From Pseudomonadota bacterium (lineage in GTDB: Bacteria > Desulfobacterota > Binatia > Binatales > Binataceae): a stretch of 64,000 nucleotides of DNA. The DNA is taken from positions 248,001-312,000 of the forward strand of contig JAJPIF010000011.1 of the NCBI GenBank assembly GCA_021324885.1, read 5' to 3'. A program made the position numbers and the translations under genes. Each line of letters opens with the position of its first letter. Positions within the stretch are counted from its first letter, which is position 1. The notes under the pieces were generated by a model. It was not told the origin of the DNA, ran no database searches, and saw nothing but the letters and a program-made list of their open reading frames with translations. Below are positions 206 through 10,038 of the stretch, one piece after another.

Positions 206-1501
206 TTAAAACACGTAAATCAGGCTGAGCGAGAAGAAATTAATCACCGTGTTGGTGAACTGCCCGCCAAGCGTGGTACCCGTGATTCTCGATTGCTGCA
301 GCGGCATCTTGCCTTCCCACAGGAATTCGTAAGCAAACCCGGTCTTCAGGCGTTCCGTCCACTGGTATTGGATACCGGCGGCATAGCGGTATTGAGCGCC
401 AACGGGAGCGCTCACCGTGCGATTGCCGTCGCTAACCATCGAGCTGTCGTACGCAAATCCGGCCGAGAGCATTAGCGGGACAGATACCTGGTACTGCAAT
501 CCAGCCGCGATTTGCCAGGTATCCTGATAATTGAAATTTTGGGTCAGACTGCGCGGATTTGCGGAGTTGACGTTGATTCCGACCAGGCCGAACTGGCTCC
601 AGTTTTGCCAGTTCACACTGCCCAGCAGCGCCAAGCGGCCGGTTATCTGCCGGTACGCGCTCAGCATTACCATTTGCGGTACGGTGATTCCCAGGTCCAC
701 CGGAGCGCCGAGAAGTCCGCGACGGCGCAACAGTGTCATTAAAATCGGCCCGGTTCCTCTGAAATGCGGAATAGAACTGAAGTTGAGATCGACCGGGGTC
801 AGGTAAGTTATGCCGATCCGGGTTTTTTCGTCCGGCTGGATCATCAGGCCAATATCCCCGCCAACGCCGGCGGTGTAGTCCTGATACTTAACCTGTCCGT
901 CCCTGCCCGGCAGCAGGTTTCTAACTCCCGCCTTCTCGCGCAGATATCCCAGCATCACGTTCACGCCGCCGCCCACCGACAGCCAATCATTAACCCGGTA
1001 GGCGACGGCGGGAATAAACGACAGGCCGAGGATGGTCGCTCCCTGGAGAAAGTACCTGCCGACCCAGTTCAGGTTGTACTCCAAAGCGCCGCCGAAATAG
1101 TCACACATGGCGAAGCCGAATTTAAGCCGGCTGTTCAGGCTGTAAACATAAAAGAAGCTGCCGGCGGGCAGCGGAACCAGCGCGTTGCCGCCGTCGGTTC
1201 CCCGCGTCGTCGTGCTTGTGTCGGGTGCGAAATTAAGATGGGTGTAAATCGGCTGAATGCCGGTCAAAAGCTGCGAATGATCGAGCAGAGCCATCCCGGC
1301 TGGATTGCTGAACACAGTGGAGGCGTCCTGCGCGCGCGCGCCGTAGCCGGCGCTGGCGAGCCCCACGTCCGGGGTGCCCATCTCGTACAGGAAGAAGCCG
1401 CCGGCCAAAGCCGAACCCGGCCGCCATGTCATCAACAGCGAGATGGCGAGCGCGCCGAACCAGACGATACTGCAGGTCCGCACGAATTGCATCCTGGCCA
1501 T
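206..1501 (-). CDS. FadL/OmpP1-family outer membrane transporter
   Basis: A 431-residue secreted protein. It has a hydrophobic signal peptide (about residues 8-33, ending around ALA) and then the FadL-type N-terminal plug region, including the hallmark NPAGMA segment near residues 67-72. The rest has the alternating aromatic/polar pattern of beta strands and ends in Phe, as outer-membrane barrels do. FadL/TodX/XylN relatives bring fatty acids and aromatic hydrocarbons across the outer membrane; the substrate here is not visible. It is the second gene of a minus-strand pair, 27 bases after another predicted barrel. Start ATG 1501 has GAGAGGATGA-like purines just upstream. The family call is confident; the substrate is not. 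Confidence 0.88.
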   Translation of the reverse strand: MARMQFVRTCSIVWFGALAISLLMTWRPGSALAGGFFLYEMGTPDVGLASAGYGARAQDASTVFSNPAGMALLDHSQLLTGIQPIYTHLNFAPDTSTTTRGTDGGNALVPLPAGSFFYVYSLNSRLKFGFAMCDYFGGALEYNLNWVGRYFLQGATILGLSFIPAVAYRVNDWLSVGGGVNVMLGYLREKAGVRNLLPGRDGQVKYQDYTAGVGGDIGLMIQPDEKTRIGITYLTPVDLNFSSIPHFRGTGPILMTLLRRRGLLGAPVDLGITVPQMVMLSAYRQITGRLALLGSVNWQNWSQFGLVGINVNSANPRSLTQNFNYQDTWQIAAGLQYQVSVPLMLSAGFAYDSSMVSDGNRTVSAPVGAQYRYAAGIQYQWTERLKTGFAYEFLWEGKMPLQQSRITGTTLGGQFTNTVINFFSLSLIYVF

Positions 1502-1528: not shown

Positions 1529-2392
1529 TCAGAGTTCCACCCGCGGCAATATTACCGTTATCTGAAACTTCAGAATGAACTGTGGAGCCTTCGGATCGAA
1601 TTGGCGGTAAGTTATCCACTCGCCGACGATTGATGCGTTAATGTCACGATCTTCAGCAACCTGCCATACCTTGCCGATACCGGCGCTGAGCGAAATTTCG
1701 GTCGAGGTGTTATGACGTAAATTGAATGTCCAGGTCGCGTCCCGGGATCTCAGATACCAGCCTTGTCCCAACTGGTAAACGAAGAACGGCTGAAACGTGA
1801 GCTGTGTTACTGGTCTGCGATCGGGCGCGGTGTAAGCAAAAGAGGTGCCCTGTTGAAAAAGGCCGCCAACCAGAAGCCCCGGTATGCCGCGATAGGTTGC
1901 GGCCGCCGCCGGGCCGATCTGCCAGGTGCCGGACCCCGCGGCCCGCGTGGTTGCGGTGGGAACAACGAGATACGGCCCGACACCCCAACGCAGTCCCGTC
2001 ACCAGGAAATCGGGACGCCGTGCCACGAACAAGTCGAGAAACTGAGTATCGCCGAACTGTGTATTGGTCGAGGGCCCAGGGCCGTTTGGAATTGTGGCAA
2101 CCTTAAAAGTTGGGCGCAGCAGTTGCTGCCATGGAATGAACCAAAACGGCCGCACGGGAATAACGGGCTGGATAACGAGTGTGTTGGGTTCGGCCTCGCT
2201 ATGAAACTGGCTGGTCGTGTAGTCATCTTCGATTTTCAATTGCGCCAGTATTGCGGTCGGATCATTCGAATTTGTTGTCAGTTCCTCCAGCGACTGGTGC
2301 GGCGCGATTTGGGCCGCAAGTTGGGGACACACCCCGGCCGCGGTCAAAATCAGGCTTGAGACCAGGATTGTGGTAAATACCAATCGCGTCAT
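1529..2392 (-). CDS. Predicted outer membrane beta-barrel protein (MetA/phenol-degradation-porin-like)
   Basis: A 287-residue protein with a signal peptide (residues 1-27, cleavage near LAAQ). A short linker follows, then about 200 residues of alternating Gly/aromatic beta-strand pattern (GVGPYLVVPT, FQPFFVYQLG, LSAGIGKVW, ILKFQITVILP). This layout resembles the small 'transporter' barrels near aromatic-compound genes (MetA-pathway-of-phenol-degradation type). That assignment is by appearance only. It precedes the FadL-like gene on the minus strand by 27 bases, so the two probably form an operon that moves one class of hydrophobic substrate across the outer membrane. Confidence 0.6.
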   Translation of the reverse strand: MTRLVFTTILVSSLILTAAGVCPQLAAQIAPHQSLEELTTNSNDPTAILAQLKIEDDYTTSQFHSEAEPNTLVIQPVIPVRPFWFIPWQQLLRPTFKVATIPNGPGPSTNTQFGDTQFLDLFVARRPDFLVTGLRWGVGPYLVVPTATTRAAGSGTWQIGPAAAATYRGIPGLLVGGLFQQGTSFAYTAPDRRPVTQLTFQPFFVYQLGQGWYLRSRDATWTFNLRHNTSTEISLSAGIGKVWQVAEDRDINASIVGEWITYRQFDPKAPQFILKFQITVILPRVEL

Positions 2393-2778: not shown

Positions 2779-3585
2779 TTACTGGAGGGCCGCCGACGGC
2801 GATTCTGGCGCAGTGATCCCGACTCCCAAGGTGACAAAGCGCTGATCCAGACCGTTGGCCCAGTAATTCATCGCGTGCTCGGCATCGCCCCACTGCCAGA
2901 CGGTGGCGTTTTTAACCGCAGCGGTGCCAAACTGCCTGTCAGCCCAGGCCGCGAGTAATTGCCCCGTCATCGAATCCGTAAGCTTCGCCTCACCAGTGGC
3001 GGAACCGACGAATGCGTAGGTGCCGGTTGCTGCCATCTTGATCACGTTCAGTGCATGGGCCTGAGGTACGACGACTGATACGGTGCGCAACACCGGCACC
3101 GCTGAAGTCGCATCGGTAAGTGCTACTGCAAGCCTTACCGTATCAGGGCCCGGGTCGGTTACGATCTGATAGTTTTTGCTGAAGGCTTTCACCAGAACGT
3201 CATCGAAATAGTTGCAGAGCACCTGCTGCTGATTTGCCGGAAGCGTGGAATCGCTATCCGCCCAGTATGTGACCGGGTCGATTATGACCTTGTTATACTG
3301 CGAGAAATTGACACCGGGCGCGACATACGCCAGCGCCGCCTGTTGTTCCTGGTTGCCAACAATAGACGGAGCGTTAGGGTCCTGACTCTTGGGTGTTAGC
3401 AAAGCATAGTCGGCGCCCAAAAACCCGCTTGGAGGCGGGGCCGGGGCGGCGGTTTCACCCTGCGCGCGCTCGACAACGTTTGGCTGTGCCGACGAGGTCT
3501 GCGAGCAGCCGGCCAGAGCGCACGCCCCGAGGACAACGGCCAGCAGGGCCGCAACCAGTTTAGTGTTTGTTTCCGTTCGATTCAT
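2779..3585 (-). CDS. DUF3313 family lipoprotein
   Basis: 268 residues. The N-terminus has a lysine followed by a hydrophobic stretch and a lipobox (LAGC, Cys near residue 27), so this is probably a lipoprotein. The body matches the DUF3313 layout: a YAL-x-P-like segment, then a KVIIDPV-type strand, and a C-terminal stretch with the adenine/tryptophan-rich GEAKLTDSMTGQLLAAWADR pattern typical of this family. The molecular function is unknown. The gene stands alone on the minus strand, with a long upstream region that carries operator copy A at 3701-3747. Confidence 0.8.
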   Translation of the reverse strand: MNRTETNTKLVAALLAVVLGACALAGCSQTSSAQPNVVERAQGETAAPAPPPSGFLGADYALLTPKSQDPNAPSIVGNQEQQAALAYVAPGVNFSQYNKVIIDPVTYWADSDSTLPANQQQVLCNYFDDVLVKAFSKNYQIVTDPGPDTVRLAVALTDATSAVPVLRTVSVVVPQAHALNVIKMAATGTYAFVGSATGEAKLTDSMTGQLLAAWADRQFGTAAVKNATVWQWGDAEHAMNYWANGLDQRFVTLGVGITAPESPSAALQ

Positions 3586-3700
3586 GTCTCAGCTCTCCTG
3601 TTGTTGTATTAACAACCTTTTAACGCTCCGGGGTCTGAATTGCCCGGCGAGCCACCTTAACAATGGACCGATTGTGATAAGGCGGGTGAAACCTGTCTAT

Positions 3701-3747
3701 TGTACCTTGGTTCAATACGACCGCTAGCCGAATTGGACCAAAGTGCA
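3701..3747. promoter_or_regulatory. Operator copy A: bipartite inverted repeat
   Basis: Left arm TGTACCTTGGTTCAAT (3701-3716) and right arm ATTGGACCAAAGTGCA (3732-3747) are inverted copies (13 of 16 positions), separated by 15 bases. The same structure, with the same 16-15-16 spacing, occurs at 7360-7406. Each arm also holds its own TTGG-N-CCAA-like dyad, so two protein dimers 31 bases (about three helical turns) apart could bind. It lies about 115 bases upstream of the DUF3313 start. The binding protein is inferred only; the nearby FixJ-type regulator is the obvious candidate. Confidence 0.65.
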
Positions 3748-4052
3748 GCGACGCGATCGCCTTTTTCTTCGAATAGAGGAACTGTGCGCGCGGACGACAA
3801 GCGAACGCTTCGATATTCTGGACGCACTTTCGCAGCAGGCATCAACGGACGCGAATCGACTGTCCGCTTTTTAACCTCATCGCAATCGCAATTGCGAGAT
3901 GCAAAATTGTTTTACCGCGAAATAGGTGTCGGGTCGCGGCGGTTCGGATCTGTTGATTCTCATAAGGTGTGTGAAGGCGAGCGACTCACTACCGAATGAA
4001 TAACAGCTGCGAGAAGGAGGTGTCAGGGCAATAGCGGCAAGCCAGATACGTT

Positions 4053-4079
4053 CGCGAGTGGGACGGACTGTCCCACGCG
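4053..4079. repeat. Perfect 7-bp inverted repeat (hairpin or operator)
   Basis: GTGGGAC (4058-4064) and GTCCCAC (4070-4076) flank a 5-base centre, with an outer CGC/GCG extension. It lies about 45 bases downstream of the DUF1254 stop codon. There is no T run on the minus strand, so it is not a classical terminator. It could be an mRNA 3'-end hairpin or a regulator site. Confidence 0.45.
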
Positions 4080-4123
4080 GGCGCTGATCCTTCGGGAACG
4101 AACCTGTCAGAAGCGCGTAAAAC

Positions 4124-5488
4124 CTAAACTGCCCTTACGCGCGCGATCGGCGGTGGATTCCATTGTCCGGTTAGCGCCGCGGGTTTGGGGGCATAAATGC
4201 GCATGGTCAAGTTAAACGGGCTCCTCGGGGTCGGGAGCCAGTTTACTTCTTTATCCCTGCCCGGACTCTCATTGTAAAAGTAAAGGTCGAGCGATCCGTC
4301 TGGATTGTACTTGAACGGCATCCAATTGCTGAGGGCAAATCGATTCAAAGGATTGGCTACCTGGTAGCCTTCCGAATCATATAACGTAACTGACCAGAAG
4401 GCGTTTGCGGGCGGCGTATCACCTTTCTGGAAGTGAAGTATGTATTTGTTGGTTCCGTCGAGCGGTTTCCCGGATTCGTCCGAAAGACTTAAAGGGTATA
4501 TGGCGTCTTCGGGCACGTTCGCACCAAGACCGACCTGAGCGACGATCGCGCGTTTAAGATAATAGTTGCCGTACACGCCCATGGTATCGGTATTCATCGA
4601 CCAGCCATTCACCACCCGCGCGATAGTAGGCAGCTTCCATGCCATCAATTGCTGCGCCTCTTGGGGGGCAGTGGCCAAGCCGTTGCGGATAGCTGGATCG
4701 GCGTTGTTCAGGTCGAAGCTTTTGCCGGGTTCGATGCCGACCTTCTTTAATTGGGCGACCATCGGCTGGTCGGTAAGGTGCGGCGGATTGAGCTTGAGGA
4801 GATCGGCCGCATAGGAAAAGAACGCGGTGGCGGGCATGTTATCGACCTGCACTTTCGGCGGCGTTTTCATGTCTATGGCAGGGTCGATCTTCGCGGCTGG
4901 AATAACGGGGGTTTTGCTCCGTTTCGACAACGGAGTGACTTGGTAGGCGGCCTGTATCTTGTGAACTGCGTCGTAGTCCCCGGGACCGTCGGTCCTGGTG
5001 CGGCCTATTATCCATACGAATGGCGTCGGCGCGCTGATTTGCGTCAGCCCCGCAGGGATATTTCCGCTCCAACCCGGTGGGCTGATCAGGAAGTGTCCCG
5101 CTTTGGTCCCCGTGGTCCGCCATCCAGGCGATGCAAAGACGTCGGTCCACATATCAAGCATCGGCAGCAGATAATAGCGGCCAGCGGTGTCTGGCGCGGA
5201 CACAATCATCGGCTCTGTGGTCAGGTCGAGATAGGCGCTCGAATACAGCGTGTCGAAATTGGGCCGAACCACGGTCTTGAATTCGGCGGCGGGATATGCG
5301 GCGAAGCTGTGAAACATGTTGGCAGGGCCGAGGCCGGATATTGTTTCCGACTCGATGTTGGTCGCCAATTTCCGCGTGATCTCCATTGAGACCAGGGGAT
5401 AAAAGTAAAGATAGGCGTCGACACCGATGGCGTGCGCCTCCTGCTCGGTGAGGGCCCGGCGATCTTCCGCTTGATTGAGTATAGCCAT
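4124..5488 (-). CDS. DUF1254/DUF1214 domain protein
   Basis: 454 residues with no signal peptide. The N-terminal DUF1254 domain (about residues 20-170) opens with the family's VDAYLYFYPLV helix and a VRPNFDTLYSSAYLDL segment. The DUF1214 domain (about 320-440) includes the HFQKGDTPPANAFWSVTLYD block. These two-domain proteins are widespread and biochemically undefined, and often sit beside sulfatases or porins, as here. The gene is 168 bases downstream of the arylsulfatase on the same strand and is probably cotranscribed with it. The absence of an export signal is unusual, because many DUF1254 proteins are periplasmic. Confidence 0.88.
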   Translation of the reverse strand: MAILNQAEDRRALTEQEAHAIGVDAYLYFYPLVSMEITRKLATNIESETISGLGPANMFHSFAAYPAAEFKTVVRPNFDTLYSSAYLDLTTEPMIVSAPDTAGRYYLLPMLDMWTDVFASPGWRTTGTKAGHFLISPPGWSGNIPAGLTQISAPTPFVWIIGRTRTDGPGDYDAVHKIQAAYQVTPLSKRSKTPVIPAAKIDPAIDMKTPPKVQVDNMPATAFFSYAADLLKLNPPHLTDQPMVAQLKKVGIEPGKSFDLNNADPAIRNGLATAPQEAQQLMAWKLPTIARVVNGWSMNTDTMGVYGNYYLKRAIVAQVGLGANVPEDAIYPLSLSDESGKPLDGTNKYILHFQKGDTPPANAFWSVTLYDSEGYQVANPLNRFALSNWMPFKYNPDGSLDLYFYNESPGRDKEVNWLPTPRSPFNLTMRIYAPKPAALTGQWNPPPIARVRAV

Positions 5489-5656
5489 TTTGTCAATACT
5501 CTAAGAACGTTTTTTCTTTAATGCCGAATACAGGATTACTACTGATTTTTCGCCTTGGTAAAGCGTGAACAGCTTCACCCGCCGTGTCAGCAGGCCAAAC
5601 TACAGCCGGCTTTTATCTGAATTGCGGTGGGCTGCGGTATGAGTCGGGTTTCTCGC

Positions 5657-7150
5657 TCAGTGGTAACCGCCGCCTGAAGCGTCCGTGATCTGCCGCAGCA
5701 CGGCATCCAGATTGAACGACGCGGGTTTCTGCCGCGGCGGGAACTTCTCAAAGTCGTCAATTTGCCGGGCGACGATCGCCTGCATCCCGTAAAGAAGATA
5801 AGCGTGGGAGATGACCCAATCCCAGTAGGTGTTGGAGTTTTCGTCGGCGCGTTCGAACGGATCGCGCCGGAGGTTGAACATCTTGGGCGCCCGCAGCTTC
5901 ACGAAGGGCTCGAACCAGCACATCAACTGTTTGGCCCGCTGTTCCATCAACACCAGTTTCCAGTCGCCCATTCGCAGGGCCAGGATATCTCCATCATCGC
6001 TGATATAGAAGAAGAACTTGCGCGGGCTTTCTTTCGCTTCCCCGCTCAAATAGGGCAGCAGGTTGTAGCCGTCGATATGGACCTTGTAATTCCGCTCGCC
6101 GATCCTGTGACCCTGGAGAAGCTTCGCGGTGATGTCAGCATCTCCGGCGGCCGCCAGCAAGGTCGGCAGCCAGTCCTGATGCGACACGATATCGTTGAAG
6201 ACCGAACCGGGTTTGATTTTGCCCGGCCAGCGCACGAAAAAGGGCACGCGCCAGCCGCCTTCCCAGTTGGTGTTTTTTTCGCTGCGAAACGGCGTAATGG
6301 CCGCGTCCGGCCAACTGTTGAAGTGCGGCCCGTTATCGGTTGAATAGACGACGATGGTGTTATCGGCGATACCCAACTCGTCCAGTTTGGCAACCATCCT
6401 GCCGACATCCTCGTCGTGCGCGACCATCACGTCATTGTAGGGCCCCTGGCCGCTCTTGCCTCTGTGCTTTTCGGCGCAGTGGGTGCGAAAATGCATCGCG
6501 GTGGTGTTGTACCAGAGGAAAAACGGCTTGCCGTCGTTGTGCGTCTTGCCGATGAAATTGAGCGCATGATCGGTGACCTCGTCATCGATGGTTTCCATGC
6601 GCTTGCGGTTGAGAGGGCCCGTATCCTCAACCTTCTGGCCGCCGCGGCCGTCCGCCCAACTATGGAGTACGCCTCGGGGGCCGAAGCGCTTCTTGAAGGC
6701 CGGGTCCTTCGGATAGTCGGGGTCTTCCGGCTCTTCCTCGGCGTTGAGGTGATACAGGTTGCCGAAGAATTCATCAAAGCCATGCATCGTGGGCAAAAAC
6801 TCGTCTTTGTCTCCGAGATGATTCTTGCCGAAGTGCCCGGTCATGTAACCCATGGGCTTGAGCAATTCCGCGATAGTCGGGTCATCCGCGCGCAGACCAA
6901 CATTGGCGCCGGGCATGCCGACCTTGGTCAAGCCGGTGCGAATCGGATTCTGGCCGGTAATAAAGGCGGCCCGGCCGGCGGTGCAGCTCTGCTGGCCATA
7001 ATAGTCGGTAAAGGCGGCGCCTTCGTTGGCGATGCGATCGATGTTACGGGTCCAATAACCCATCTGCCCGCGATTGTTGTAGCTGATGTTCCACCATCCG
7101 ATATCGTCGCCCCAGAGAATAAGAATGTTCGGGCTGCCAGCTTTTGGCAT
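5657..7150 (-). CDS. Arylsulfatase (type I, formylglycine-dependent)
   Basis: 497 residues of the alkaline-phosphatase/sulfatase superfamily. Metal ligands are in WGDDIGWW (Asp15, Asp16). The active-site signature is C-T-A-G-R (Cys56-Arg60) within QQSCTAGRAAFITGQ; Cys56 would be converted to formylglycine. The later VVYSTDNGPHFNSW block supplies the second Asp/Asn pair. Ala replaces the usual Pro of C-x-P-x-R, a variant known in this family. There is no signal peptide, so the enzyme should be cytoplasmic and act on an imported sulfate ester. No formylglycine-generating enzyme is in the window. Upstream on the same gap is operator copy B. Confidence 0.9.
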   Translation of the reverse strand: MPKAGSPNILILWGDDIGWWNISYNNRGQMGYWTRNIDRIANEGAAFTDYYGQQSCTAGRAAFITGQNPIRTGLTKVGMPGANVGLRADDPTIAELLKPMGYMTGHFGKNHLGDKDEFLPTMHGFDEFFGNLYHLNAEEEPEDPDYPKDPAFKKRFGPRGVLHSWADGRGGQKVEDTGPLNRKRMETIDDEVTDHALNFIGKTHNDGKPFFLWYNTTAMHFRTHCAEKHRGKSGQGPYNDVMVAHDEDVGRMVAKLDELGIADNTIVVYSTDNGPHFNSWPDAAITPFRSEKNTNWEGGWRVPFFVRWPGKIKPGSVFNDIVSHQDWLPTLLAAAGDADITAKLLQGHRIGERNYKVHIDGYNLLPYLSGEAKESPRKFFFYISDDGDILALRMGDWKLVLMEQRAKQLMCWFEPFVKLRAPKMFNLRRDPFERADENSNTYWDWVISHAYLLYGMQAIVARQIDDFEKFPPRQKPASFNLDAVLRQITDASGGGYH

Positions 7151-7490
7151 TCTGGTTTCCTCCTGTTGGCTCGGTGTTTAGACGGCGTGCCGCCACCGCC
7201 CGGCGCGACCGTTTTCGAAGCCGCAACAGCCTGATGATGAGAGCAGCGGCTGATGGGTTGAGCCGAAGCGCGTCCGGCGGTTGCATCCAATCCCTGCGTG
7301 GCTCGCGGCAAAAGATCCCATAGACGTGAAACAAACCGATCTATCGGCAGGCCGTCAATGGTACTTTGGTTCAATACCCCGCTGCCGATTCTTGGACCAA
7401 GGTACAATGGTGCGAAGGCGGCGCAACGGCGGAGAATGCCGGCGACTCCCTGTTGCTTAAATGGAGAACCGCTCACCAGAGGCCTGAGGC
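7151..7490. other. Divergent control region between sulfatase and regulator
   Basis: 340 bases between two divergent genes. The recognisable element is operator copy B (7360-7406), about 85 bases upstream of the response regulator and 210 upstream of the sulfatase. A purine-rich Shine-Dalgarno (CTCCT on the plus strand, 7160-7164) serves the sulfatase, and GAGG at about 7480-7487 serves the regulator. Nothing else stands out. Confidence 0.55.
7360..7406. promoter_or_regulatory. Operator copy B: bipartite inverted repeat
   Basis: Left arm GGTACTTTGGTTCAAT (7360-7375) and right arm CTTGGACCAAGGTACA (7391-7406), again with a 15-base spacer. Arms match copy A at 14/16 (left) and 13/16 (right) positions, while the spacer is poorly conserved in register. 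Conserved arms with a diverged spacer argue for a functional binding site. Its position between the sulfatase and the receiver gene suggests control of both, including autoregulation of the signalling genes. Confidence 0.68.
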
Positions 7491-7868
7491 ATGCCGGACA
7501 AATCGAAAGGGACCGTCCTGGTGGTCGATGATGACCTGTCATTGCTGCGCGCGCTGACCCGTTTGCTGCTGCAGTTCGGCTTCGACGTGCGGTCGTTCCA
7601 AAGCGCCGAGGCTTTTCTTTCCACCCGGATACCCGCGGGCAAGGTATGTGCCTTGGTGGATATTTATCTGCCGGGAATGAGCGGAATCCAATTGTGCGCC
7701 GCGCTGGCCGCGGCCCGGCGCGCCATTCCCTTAATTCTGATGAGCGCGCGCGACGATGAGGGTACGAAGAGGAAAGCAAGCCAGTCCGGCGCAGTCGCAA
7801 CGCTTTACAAGCCGATTGACGAGGGAGTGCTGCTCGCCGCACTCGGACGGGCGCTTGGCGATAAATAG
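7491..7868 (+). CDS. Single-domain response regulator (receiver only)
   Basis: 125 residues, just a CheY-like receiver related to FixJ N-terminal domains. Acidic pocket VVDDD (residues 11-15), phospho-acceptor Asp57 in VDIYLPGMSG, Ser in LMSAR, and the conserved Lys in YKPI. There is no output domain. It is the first gene of a three-gene signalling set (receiver, kinase, FixJ-type regulator), 162 bases before the kinase. It could be a phosphate sink or an intermediate in a relay that tunes the second regulator. Confidence 0.85.
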   Translation: MPDKSKGTVLVVDDDLSLLRALTRLLLQFGFDVRSFQSAEAFLSTRIPAGKVCALVDIYLPGMSGIQLCAALAAARRAIPLILMSARDDEGTKRKASQSGAVATLYKPIDEGVLLAALGRALGDK

Positions 7869-8030: not shown

Positions 8031-9344
8031 ATGTTGAAGGGCGAAACTTTGGACCGCCAAAGGCGGGGAAAAGCGCGGTCCTCGAAAGCCCGCAGGGCTC
8101 ATCAATCTGAAAGATTCGAAACCCTACTCGATGAAATGTCGGGCGCGATGTCGCGAGTCCCGGGCCACGAGATCGACGGGGCGATCGAGCGATGGCTGCG
8201 GGAAATTGTGCTTGCCCTGGAGATTGACCGCAGCACCGTTTGGGAAAAAGCCTCAGCCGAGCTGGGCTTCGCGGCCACTCATTGGTGGGCGCGTCCGGGA
8301 ATCCCAAAACTTCCCCGTAAAATGGTCTCGATGCGGATTTCGCCCTGGTTGACGGCCGAAGCCTTGGCGGGCAGGCCAGTGATGTATTCAAGCCCGGCCG
8401 ATCTGCCCACGCAGGAGCGATCGCTGAAGCGCTTCCTGGCGGCCCATGGTCCCGAGGCGCAGTTGATGCTGCCTTTGGAAATCGGCGGAGCGGTGGTCGG
8501 CGGCTTGACCTTCGGCAAGTTTCGGGGCCGGTGGAATTGGCCGCCGGCGCTGGTCCGACGCTTGCGTGTCGTCGCACAGATAATCGCCGGCGCGCTCGAT
8601 CGCAAACGCACCTTCATACAGGGCCGCAAGCTGCGCGAAGAGGTCACCGTGGCGGCACGCCGGGCGATGATGGGTCAATTGGCGGCGTCGATCGCGCACG
8701 AACTCAACCAGCCGCTGAGCGCGGTGCTGAGCAATGTCAACGCCGTCCGGCGCATGATCTCGGGCGCCAGCTTCGACCGCAAAGAAGCGGTGGCAGCGCT
8801 CAGCGATGTTGCCGAAGACACCAAACGCGCCGCCGACATTATCCGCCGCGTCAGGGCGCTCTTCCAGGACAATCTCTCGCCCAACGGGAATCTTGAGATT
8901 GGCGCGCTGCTTTCCGAGCTGGAAGGCTTGTTGCGCAGTGAAGCGATGCTGCGACGCGTATCGTTGCGCATTGAAGCCGCGCCGTGCCTGCCCAGCGTGA
9001 CCGGAGACCGCGTCCAACTGCAGCAATGCGTGCTGAACCTCGTGCTGAACGCCTTCGACTCGATCCCGCCTGACAGCACCCGGCGCGAAGTGCTGATCAG
9101 AGCGGTTCAGGAGGAGTCGGAGTGGGTGACGGTTGCAGTCCGTGACACCGGCCGTGGGATAGACGATTCAGTGGCGGGGAGGCTGTTTGAACCCTTCGTT
9201 ACGACCAAGGCCAACGGGATGGGTATGGGCTTGCTGGTGACGCGTTGTATCCTGGAACGGCACGGGGGAAGGGTGTGCGGCAATTCCAACGCCGACCTGG
9301 GAGCGACCTTCAAGTTCACGCTCCCGGCGATTGCCAAACCGTAA
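8031..9344 (+). CDS. Cytoplasmic GAF-domain sensor histidine kinase
   Basis: 437 residues without membrane segments. A GAF-like sensory domain covers about residues 28-195 (predicted from sequence layout). The HisKA dimerisation domain carries the phosphorylated His223 in SIAHELNQPLSAV. The HATPase domain has the N box (LVLNAFDSI), a G1 box (VRDTGRGID) and G2 (TTKANGMGMGLLVTR). This HELNQPL type belongs with FixL/TodS-like kinases that pair with FixJ-like regulators. The soluble sensor implies an intracellular signal, possibly a catabolite of the sulfate ester or hydrocarbon handled by the adjacent genes (inference). Confidence 0.87.
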   Translation: MLKGETLDRQRRGKARSSKARRAHQSERFETLLDEMSGAMSRVPGHEIDGAIERWLREIVLALEIDRSTVWEKASAELGFAATHWWARPGIPKLPRKMVSMRISPWLTAEALAGRPVMYSSPADLPTQERSLKRFLAAHGPEAQLMLPLEIGGAVVGGLTFGKFRGRWNWPPALVRRLRVVAQIIAGALDRKRTFIQGRKLREEVTVAARRAMMGQLAASIAHELNQPLSAVLSNVNAVRRMISGASFDRKEAVAALSDVAEDTKRAADIIRRVRALFQDNLSPNGNLEIGALLSELEGLLRSEAMLRRVSLRIEAAPCLPSVTGDRVQLQQCVLNLVLNAFDSIPPDSTRREVLIRAVQEESEWVTVAVRDTGRGIDDSVAGRLFEPFVTTKANGMGMGLLVTRCILERHGGRVCGNSNADLGATFKFTLPAIAKP

Positions 9345-9360
9345 AATCGGACTAGACCTG

Positions 9361-10038
9361 ATGAATCATGAAAGCATGGTCGCGGTAATCGATGACGATG
9401 AGCCGGCGCGCCGCGCCTTGCTGCGCCAGCTCAATTGCGCCGGTTTTCGGGCCGTCGGTTTCGCTGGTGGAATCGAGTTCGTGAACGCGGCGGCGCACAG
9501 GGATTTCGATTGTGTAGTGGCCGACATGTATCTTCCCATCATGGACGGGCTCCAGCTGCAGGCGGAGATCAAACGAATCAGCCCTGACCTCTCCATCGTA
9601 TTCATTACCGGGCATGGGGATTTATCAGTGGGTCTTGCGGCGATGAAACAGGGCGCGGTCGATTTTTTGGAAAAACCGCTTCATGAGGACGCGCTGATCG
9701 AGGCGGTGCGGCGCGGCGCCGATCTTTGCCGGCAACGGCGCGCAGCCCAGGCCAGGCGCGTCCAACTTGAGGGCCGTTACGAGACCCTCACCCGGCGCGA
9801 ACGCGAGGTGTTCGACCTGGTTGCGGCGGGCCGGTTGAACAAGCAGGCCGGCGCCGACTTGGGTATCACCGAGAGAACGATCAAGGTCCACAGGGGACGC
9901 GTGATGCAAAAGATGGGCGCGGACTCGCTGGCGACGTTGGTGCGGATGGCGATCATATTGGAAATCCGCTCGCTTCCTCATAATCCAGATGCCCCCAGGC
10001 CTCAGTTGAACGCACTTGAACTGAACAACGGCCGTTGA
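9361..10038 (+). CDS. FixJ/NarL-type DNA-binding response regulator
   Basis: 225 residues. The receiver domain has DDDE at 11-14, phospho-acceptor Asp55 (VADMYLP), Thr in FITGHGD and Lys in FLEKPLHEDAL. The C-terminal LuxR-type helix-turn-helix is LTRREREVFDLVAAG, then ITERTIKVHRGRVMQKM. I chose ATG 9361, 16 bases after the kinase stop; an in-frame start at 9331 would overlap the kinase. It is the likely binder of the twin operators at 3701 and 7360, which is an inference from proximity. Confidence 0.88.
   Translation: MNHESMVAVIDDDEPARRALLRQLNCAGFRAVGFAGGIEFVNAAAHRDFDCVVADMYLPIMDGLQLQAEIKRISPDLSIVFITGHGDLSVGLAAMKQGAVDFLEKPLHEDALIEAVRRGADLCRQRRAAQARRVQLEGRYETLTRREREVFDLVAAGRLNKQAGADLGITERTIKVHRGRVMQKMGADSLATLVRMAIILEIRSLPHNPDAPRPQLNALELNNGR

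Follow-up and report, generated by a model that had tools for sequence, protein, structure and literature searches.

Two 47-base inverted-repeat elements lie on either side of an arylsulfatase gene and a DUF1254 gene in the window studied here, a 64,000-nucleotide stretch of a Binatia genome, and they raise the question of which protein recognizes them and which genes they serve. A sequence-only reading had taken them as twin bipartite operators of one sulfatase/outer-membrane regulon controlled by the adjacent kinase-regulator pair. Read directly, both elements are real (arm, spacer, and arm at 3701-3716, 3717-3731, and 3732-3747 in element 1 and at 7360-7375, 7376-7390, and 7391-7406 in element 2); the arms match between copies at 14/16 and 13/16 positions, the spacers are both 15 bases long, and the two elements have the same orientation. 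The spacers agree in register at 3/15 positions, as that reading had noted, and a 15-base spacer between 16-base arms places the arm centers 31 bases apart, confirmed in both elements. The two arms of an element repeat each other in inverted orientation (13/16 and 12/16 positions). The TTGG-N-CCAA dyad that had been ascribed to every arm is perfect in the right arms only, the left arms reading TTGGTTCAA. Nor are the spacers unrelated: once gaps are allowed they align (ACGACCGCTAGCCGA with AC-CCCGCT-GCCGA; p 0.002 by shuffling, in a post hoc test), so that an old duplication seems to have given rise to the pair. Their 100-base flanks showed no similarity (p 0.46 and 0.88).

The paired form is rare. 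The pattern TTGGNYCAA-N(12-18)-TTGGNCCAA has two matches across the 4,533,256-base genome, both inside the window (reversed control, 0), and a longer pattern with up to three mismatches found no third copy in the 4.5-Mb genome. With the window's own spacing, the pattern was present in 1 of 96 genomes, namely, the source genome, and elsewhere, including the relatives, mostly single dyads occur; the 47-base bipartite element was therefore rejected as a general operator. Half-sites of 12 bases with up to two mismatches are at chance level in the window (9 versus 8.35 expected), and the four exact ones all belong to the two elements.

The 18-bp dyad and its distance from a -10-like hexamer

What repeats is a dyad of 18 bp, ATTGNACCAARGTNCAAT, with arms ATTGNAC/GTNCAAT around YTTG; every element holds two of them, placed back to back (Table 1). 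TTGG-N-CCAA was rejected as the functional dyad, since the arms conserved across genomes are ATTGNAC/GTNCAAT; the search pattern itself imposes part of this conservation, not the rest. Random occurrence, the outcome that would have told against an operator, was not seen in the window's class: among 148 genomes the exact 16-mer TTGNACYTTGGTNCAA occurs 39 times (both strands) in 20 genomes, compared with 5 matches to the reversed control. Dyads with two mismatches stand near the control level in the window's own genome (26 versus 20), counts too close for a genome-wide target list, which was discarded as unusable.

Table 1. Predicted operators, promoters, and genes around the two elements (positions in the window)
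Feature	Position	Strand	Remarks
Dyad A	3699..3716	-	Predicted operator of leftward DUF3313 promoter; core TTGTACCTTGGTTCAA, 0 mismatches to TTGNACYTTGGTNCAA; 115 bases from DUF3313 start
Probable -10 CACAAT of DUF3313 promoter	3671..3676	-	Offset 40
Dyad B	3732..3749	+	Partly decayed (CTGCAC), 1 mismatch; poor -10 AATAGA; next called gene not codirectional
Dyad C	7358..7375	-	Towards arylsulfatase at 209 bases; 1 mismatch (TGGTAC); poor -10 TTTGTT
Dyad D	7391..7408	+	Putative operator of rightward receiver-kinase-FixJ promoter (autoregulation); 0 mismatches; 84 bases from receiver start
Probable -10 GAGAAT of receiver operon	7432..7437	+	Offset 41
DUF3313 lipoprotein	2779..3585	-	Predicted target gene; PF11769, E 4.5e-44; lipobox-like LAGC in N terminus (by eye)
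DUF1254/DUF1214 protein	4124..5488	-	PF06863, PF06742; perhaps read through from arylsulfatase (operon predicted from order)
Arylsulfatase-like sulfatase	5657..7150	-	PF00884, E 4e-51; CTAGR (formylglycine-type) motif at residue 56
Single-domain receiver	7491..7868	+	PF00072
Histidine kinase	8031..9344	+	PF00512, PF02518; N-terminal part without Pfam match
FixJ/StyR-type response regulator	9331..10038	+	Proposed binder; PF00072 and PF00196; recognition helix ERTIKVHRGR
287-aa protein	1529..2392	-	Possible operon member downstream of DUF3313; no Pfam family; 74% identical homolog in G001
FadL-type porin	206..1501	-	Possible operon member; PF03349, E 2.1e-64; 80% identical homolog in G001

To place the dyad relative to promoters, 129 nonredundant sites with at most one mismatch were aligned by their asymmetric center; the window and Binatia stretches contributed 49 of them, and the matches listed in a scan of named genomes 80. 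In the alignment, one side of the dyad carries a TAnaaT hexamer spanning offsets 40-45: TAnnnT begins at offset 40 in 57/129 sites, compared with about 2 at each other offset (except offset 17, which is the dyad's own flank) and 4/129 on the opposite side. A hold-out, formed from 39 of the 119 motif loci listed and set apart from the 80 analyzed first, behaved alike; of 48 further unused sites, 23 had TAnnnT at offset 40, whereas the remaining offsets had 0.7 each and the opposite side 3. The signal is less pronounced among the Binatia sites (offset 40 in 8/49 and offsets 39-41 in 13/49) than in the remaining set (49/80 and 60/80). A fixed, one-sided hexamer of this kind has what we take to be class II activator geometry, and the dyad center would lie near -43 if TAnnnT is the -10 box. 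The window's own candidates match TATAAT at 4/6 positions in the DUF3313 and receiver promoters and at 3/6 on the arylsulfatase side and in the orphan right half.

Linkage to FixJ/StyR-type regulators and to DUF3313

The regulator encoded in the window combines a receiver (PF00072, E 3.7e-24) with a GerE helix-turn-helix domain (PF00196, E 1.2e-18), which makes it a NarL/FixJ-type protein. StyR/StyS of Pseudomonas fluorescens and the TodT/TmoT group share the receiver and LuxR-type output; the best PDB relative is 1yio (E 2.7e-43), described there as a response regulatory protein and presumably StyR. FixL/FixJ is alike in pairing a receiver with a GerE output, and 5xso is the second PDB relative (E 3.9e-34); the NCBIfam models score below their cutoffs, however, for FixJ (NF006900; 183.3 bits versus 255), for the kinase as FixL (176 versus 850), and for the tetrathionate system TtrS/TtrR, whose regulator is of the same type (NF040749; 146.6 versus 290). 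Phosphorylated StyR is reported to activate transcription when bound at about -40 (PMC2442086), to be compared with a dyad center at about -43 here if TAnnnT is the -10 box (the starts are predicted). The StyR/TodT operator consensus, ATAAACN4GTTTAT (PMC5874301), differs from ATTGNACYTTGGTNCAAT here, with only AC-N4-GT in common. Of the StyR contact residues Lys175, Val176, and His179 (PMC5874301), the first two align with Lys185 and Val186 of the window regulator, whereas His179 is replaced by Gly189; the switching residue discussed below, Arg182 here, is Val in StyR. Unlike the StyR/TodT group, the present system has a separate receiver gene, and its targets are not a catabolic operon. The system is best seen as an uncharacterized branch of a known kind of regulator and is ordinary as such.

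Searching named genomes for TATTGKACYTTGGTMCAAT gave at least 119 stretches, each of at most 8 kb. Among the matches listed (n = 119), a strong FixJ-type regulator lay within 1.5 kb in 22, a receiver gene in 20, and either in 26; 93 of the 119 listed motif loci had neither in the stretch of up to 8 kb. Among the same listed matches, 32 of 36 sites lacking G at position 4 had no regulator nearby, including those of Campylobacter, Sulfurospirillum, and Thiodiazotropha. Some of the loci without a regulator will be chance occurrences, and some may serve another protein. At no fewer than 13 loci, regulator and receiver genes flank the site, each at most 300 bases away from it; these come from Aminicenantes, Burkholderiales, Syntrophaceae, other Deltaproteobacteria metagenome-assembled genomes, Sedimentisphaerales, Hydrogenedentes, and Binatia. 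No such site was near 18 of the 57 regulators in the first tree. Literature searches with dyad 12-mers, 11-mers, and combined terms found, among the titles listed, none on this operator, and those on DUF3313 none about its regulation; most subscription journals lay outside the coverage of both.

Two groups of loci stand apart from this pattern. Exact T-type dyads (TTGTACTTTGGTACAA) occur in Campylobacter and Sulfurospirillum (L252, L254, and L281) with no regulator of the FixJ/StyR type in 8 kb, and they may be chance matches or sites of another regulator. At six loci (L176, L178, L196, L205, L221, and L226), a dyad lies 81 to 107 bases ahead of a very long gene, with cadherin/Big domains in the two scanned (L178 and L196); five of the six adjoin another regulator-like gene, which has a GerE domain in the two scanned.

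Within the class, a match to the regulator reaching E 1e-30 is present in 49 of the 148 genomes. A paired-arm dyad was sought within 700 bases in front of DUF3313 at 30 loci of the window's family, out of 37 matches, and was found in 7/14 loci from regulator-bearing genomes versus 0/16 others (Fisher p 0.0017); three of the seven carry arms other than ATTGNAC. With the strict motif the counts are 5/14 versus 0/16 (p 0.014). The dyad before DUF3313 thus tracks the regulator among relatives, the comparison by which the sequence-only reading had proposed that it might fail, and the per-genome counts (7/11 with the regulator versus 0/12 without) uphold its idea of one regulon tied to the adjacent kinase-FixJ pair.

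The scope of that regulon was borne out in part. DUF3313 and a sulfatase stand together behind a site in two relatives, G001 and G016, whereas DUF1254 and the FadL-type gene would be reached only by read-through and the window's own arylsulfatase-side promoter has a poor -10. In G001, from the same genus, one dyad pair with a 17-base spacer (dyads 33 bases apart) separates DUF3313 from the receiver. A sulfatase sharing 59% identity with that of the window comes after DUF3313 there, between it and the 287-aa homolog, which the FadL homolog adjoins. Single dyads stand between the receiver and DUF3313-sulfatase in G016, where another dyad occurs at a different place in the stretch, and between the receiver and DUF3313 in G025; G040 has four dyads, one before DUF3313. 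The other genome of the genus, G002, gave no regulator match, exact dyad, or DUF3313 match at the thresholds used. At L122 (G020), a perfect palindrome, ATGGCACCTTGGTGCCAT, precedes DUF3313 at 2480-2497, and a regulator-like gene at that locus, with a score of 147 bits, departs from the helix pattern.

Recognition-helix residue and operator base

Regulators adjoining sites mostly have the helix E[K/R]T[IV]K[VA]HR, and the second residue of E-x-T pairs with the base at position 4 of the 16-mer: Lys goes with G (36 pairs) and Arg with T or A (10 pairs), and 0/46 are discordant, where the 46 pairs are not mutually independent and only position 4 was scored. The first set comprised 39 regulator-site pairs (30/30 Lys with G and 9/9 Arg with T or A); all 7 pairs from loci first examined after the rule was written agree, one being an Arg/T pair in Sedimentisphaerales. 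In trees built with the helix residues masked, residue and base traits each change four times. The independent switches all agree (4 in the first tree; in the larger tree 3 on well-supported branches and 4 in all), and the sign test on them is not significant (p 0.125 and 0.25) because they are so few (3 to 4).

Several cases sit at the edges of this rule. The dyads of the window and of G001 are mixed, with T at position 4 and a G-type other half in one dyad per element, and both fit the rule on one dyad half only. A site search that gave 1 match versus 1 in the control over 85 genomes led to L333 (identical to L289), where a fitting regulator lies 10 bases away; a W-type site search of 396 genomes gave 2 matches, neither near a regulator (control, 3). 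The Lys regulator at L232 also has a one-mismatch T-type site more than 2.5 kb away. G-type sites are present in the Aminicenantes genomes G200 and G201, in which no Lys regulator was located. Where Gln follows the conserved Lys, as in the regulators of L125, L128, and L130, the arms are of ATC-N-GAC type, in the own operon in two of the three and several kilobases off in one, a preliminary result. ATTAGAC arms occur at the Lys regulator of L124, and these, like the Gln-regulator arms, retain G beside AC. Dyads of paralogous regulators at L125 (position 400), L130 (8051), and L128 (18382) have the same core and other arms, ATCCGACYTTGGTCCGAT.

Whether these findings describe a portable two-component module spread over several phyla is, in our judgment, evenly balanced. 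Such a module would keep an AC-YTTG-GT core; the choice of Lys or Arg at the helix position three residues ahead of the conserved Lys would select G versus T/A beside AC, and Val/Ala or Gln directly after that Lys would select T versus C two positions outward.

A model for the two elements and the genes they may serve

We observed the motif, its fixed -10 offset, its linkage to and co-occurrence with a regulator, and the agreement between helix residue and base. Each element is very probably a back-to-back promoter pair of one FixJ/StyR-type activator, the regulator at 9331-10038 being the predicted binder. When phosphorylated, this protein would bind each 18-bp dyad as a dimer, the dyad would replace the -35 box, and RNA polymerase would be recruited to the one-sided -10. 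Element 2 (7358-7408) would drive the regulator's own receiver-kinase-FixJ operon rightward and, more weakly, the arylsulfatase-DUF1254 pair leftward. Element 1 (3699-3749) would drive DUF3313 leftward and perhaps, by read-through, the 287-aa protein and the FadL porin; its right half appears to be decaying, because nothing codirectional lies downstream. The pair may have been duplicated as the sulfatase-DUF1254 pair came between the receiver and DUF3313, and the doubling into divergent promoter pairs seems, from the genomes compared, to be a feature of the window's genus.

The adjacent regulator might instead bind the dyads and repress, two dimers three turns apart forming a tetramer that shuts both promoters. 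The distance between dyads, 31 bases in each window element and 33 in G001, would suit such a complex, and StyR is reported to repress PstyA through tetramer formation and a second site located upstream (PMC2442086). We consider this unlikely, however: in other genomes, most sites consist of one dyad at the fixed class II distance, and close pairs among L001-L064 (spacers 10-20) are confined to this genus, apart from weak ones with 8 to 9 mismatches. Slightly less probable still is that another LuxR-type regulator binds the dyads and that linkage to the neighbor reflects hitchhiking. The 93 listed motif loci without a FixJ/StyR-type regulator nearby are compatible with this, as are Sedimenticola and Thiodiazotropha, in which a dyad precedes adhesin-like genes beside a different GerE gene and the receiver match is absent or subthreshold; the 46/46 agreement between helix residue and base argues against it, as does the lack of the dyad in all 12 DUF3313-bearing genomes without the regulator.

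It is very improbable that a mobile or REP-like repeat accounts for the two elements at the ends of the 3.66-kb segment. Similar inverted repeats with related spacers do lie on either side of the sulfatase-DUF1254 pair, but their flanks differ, only two copies exist in the genome, and dyads precede DUF3313 in other genera too.

Beyond the window, two further sites with one mismatch are probable regulon members only, about 2.7 such sites being expected in the genome by chance (hand arithmetic). One (C13:247510; L137 15510-15525, left of the window) precedes a second sulfatase block ending in a bestrophin-like gene; the other (C18:39990; L138) lies 86 bases ahead of a DUF4410 gene. A two-mismatch site (L137 11729-11744) precedes a small protein and DUF2092, followed on the same strand by two PqiA genes, MlaD, and ABC_trans_aux. 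Homologs of DUF2092, the bestrophin-like gene, and MlaD also lie near sites in Burkholderiales records, and in Achromobacter (L230 3839-7898) PqiA, MlaD, and ABC_trans_aux genes come after a regulator-site-receiver arrangement. Further Binatia genes behind sites belong to the OmpA, MlaC, MipA, and EipA families, besides a phosphoketolase and several genes without a family; an Lnb_N gene (L148) was dropped as a target since it points the wrong way. Because envelope families prevail among these genes, the thread of the regulon in the window's class appears to be mostly the cell envelope and not sulfate esters as such. For a Pfam tally, 53 first downstream genes were chosen (within 450 bases, below 1000 aa, longest adhesins excluded), and 46 were scanned, 7 short or open-ended ones being omitted; receivers alone recur (7/46), the other families appearing one to two times (25 of 63 families listed), and no common function outside Binatia therefore follows.

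The points of specialist interest are the cross-phylum operator and the residue-base agreement, through which an odd repeat pair becomes a readable regulatory rule. The operator and its -10 offset make it possible to derive target lists for this regulator branch from the sequences of uncultured groups, the Binatia among them, and DUF3313, DUF1254, and DUF2092 are brought into a common context with lipid-transport components and sulfatases. From the coupled Lys/Arg and G/T changes it is predicted that operator specificity can be switched in a laboratory regulator of StyR type.
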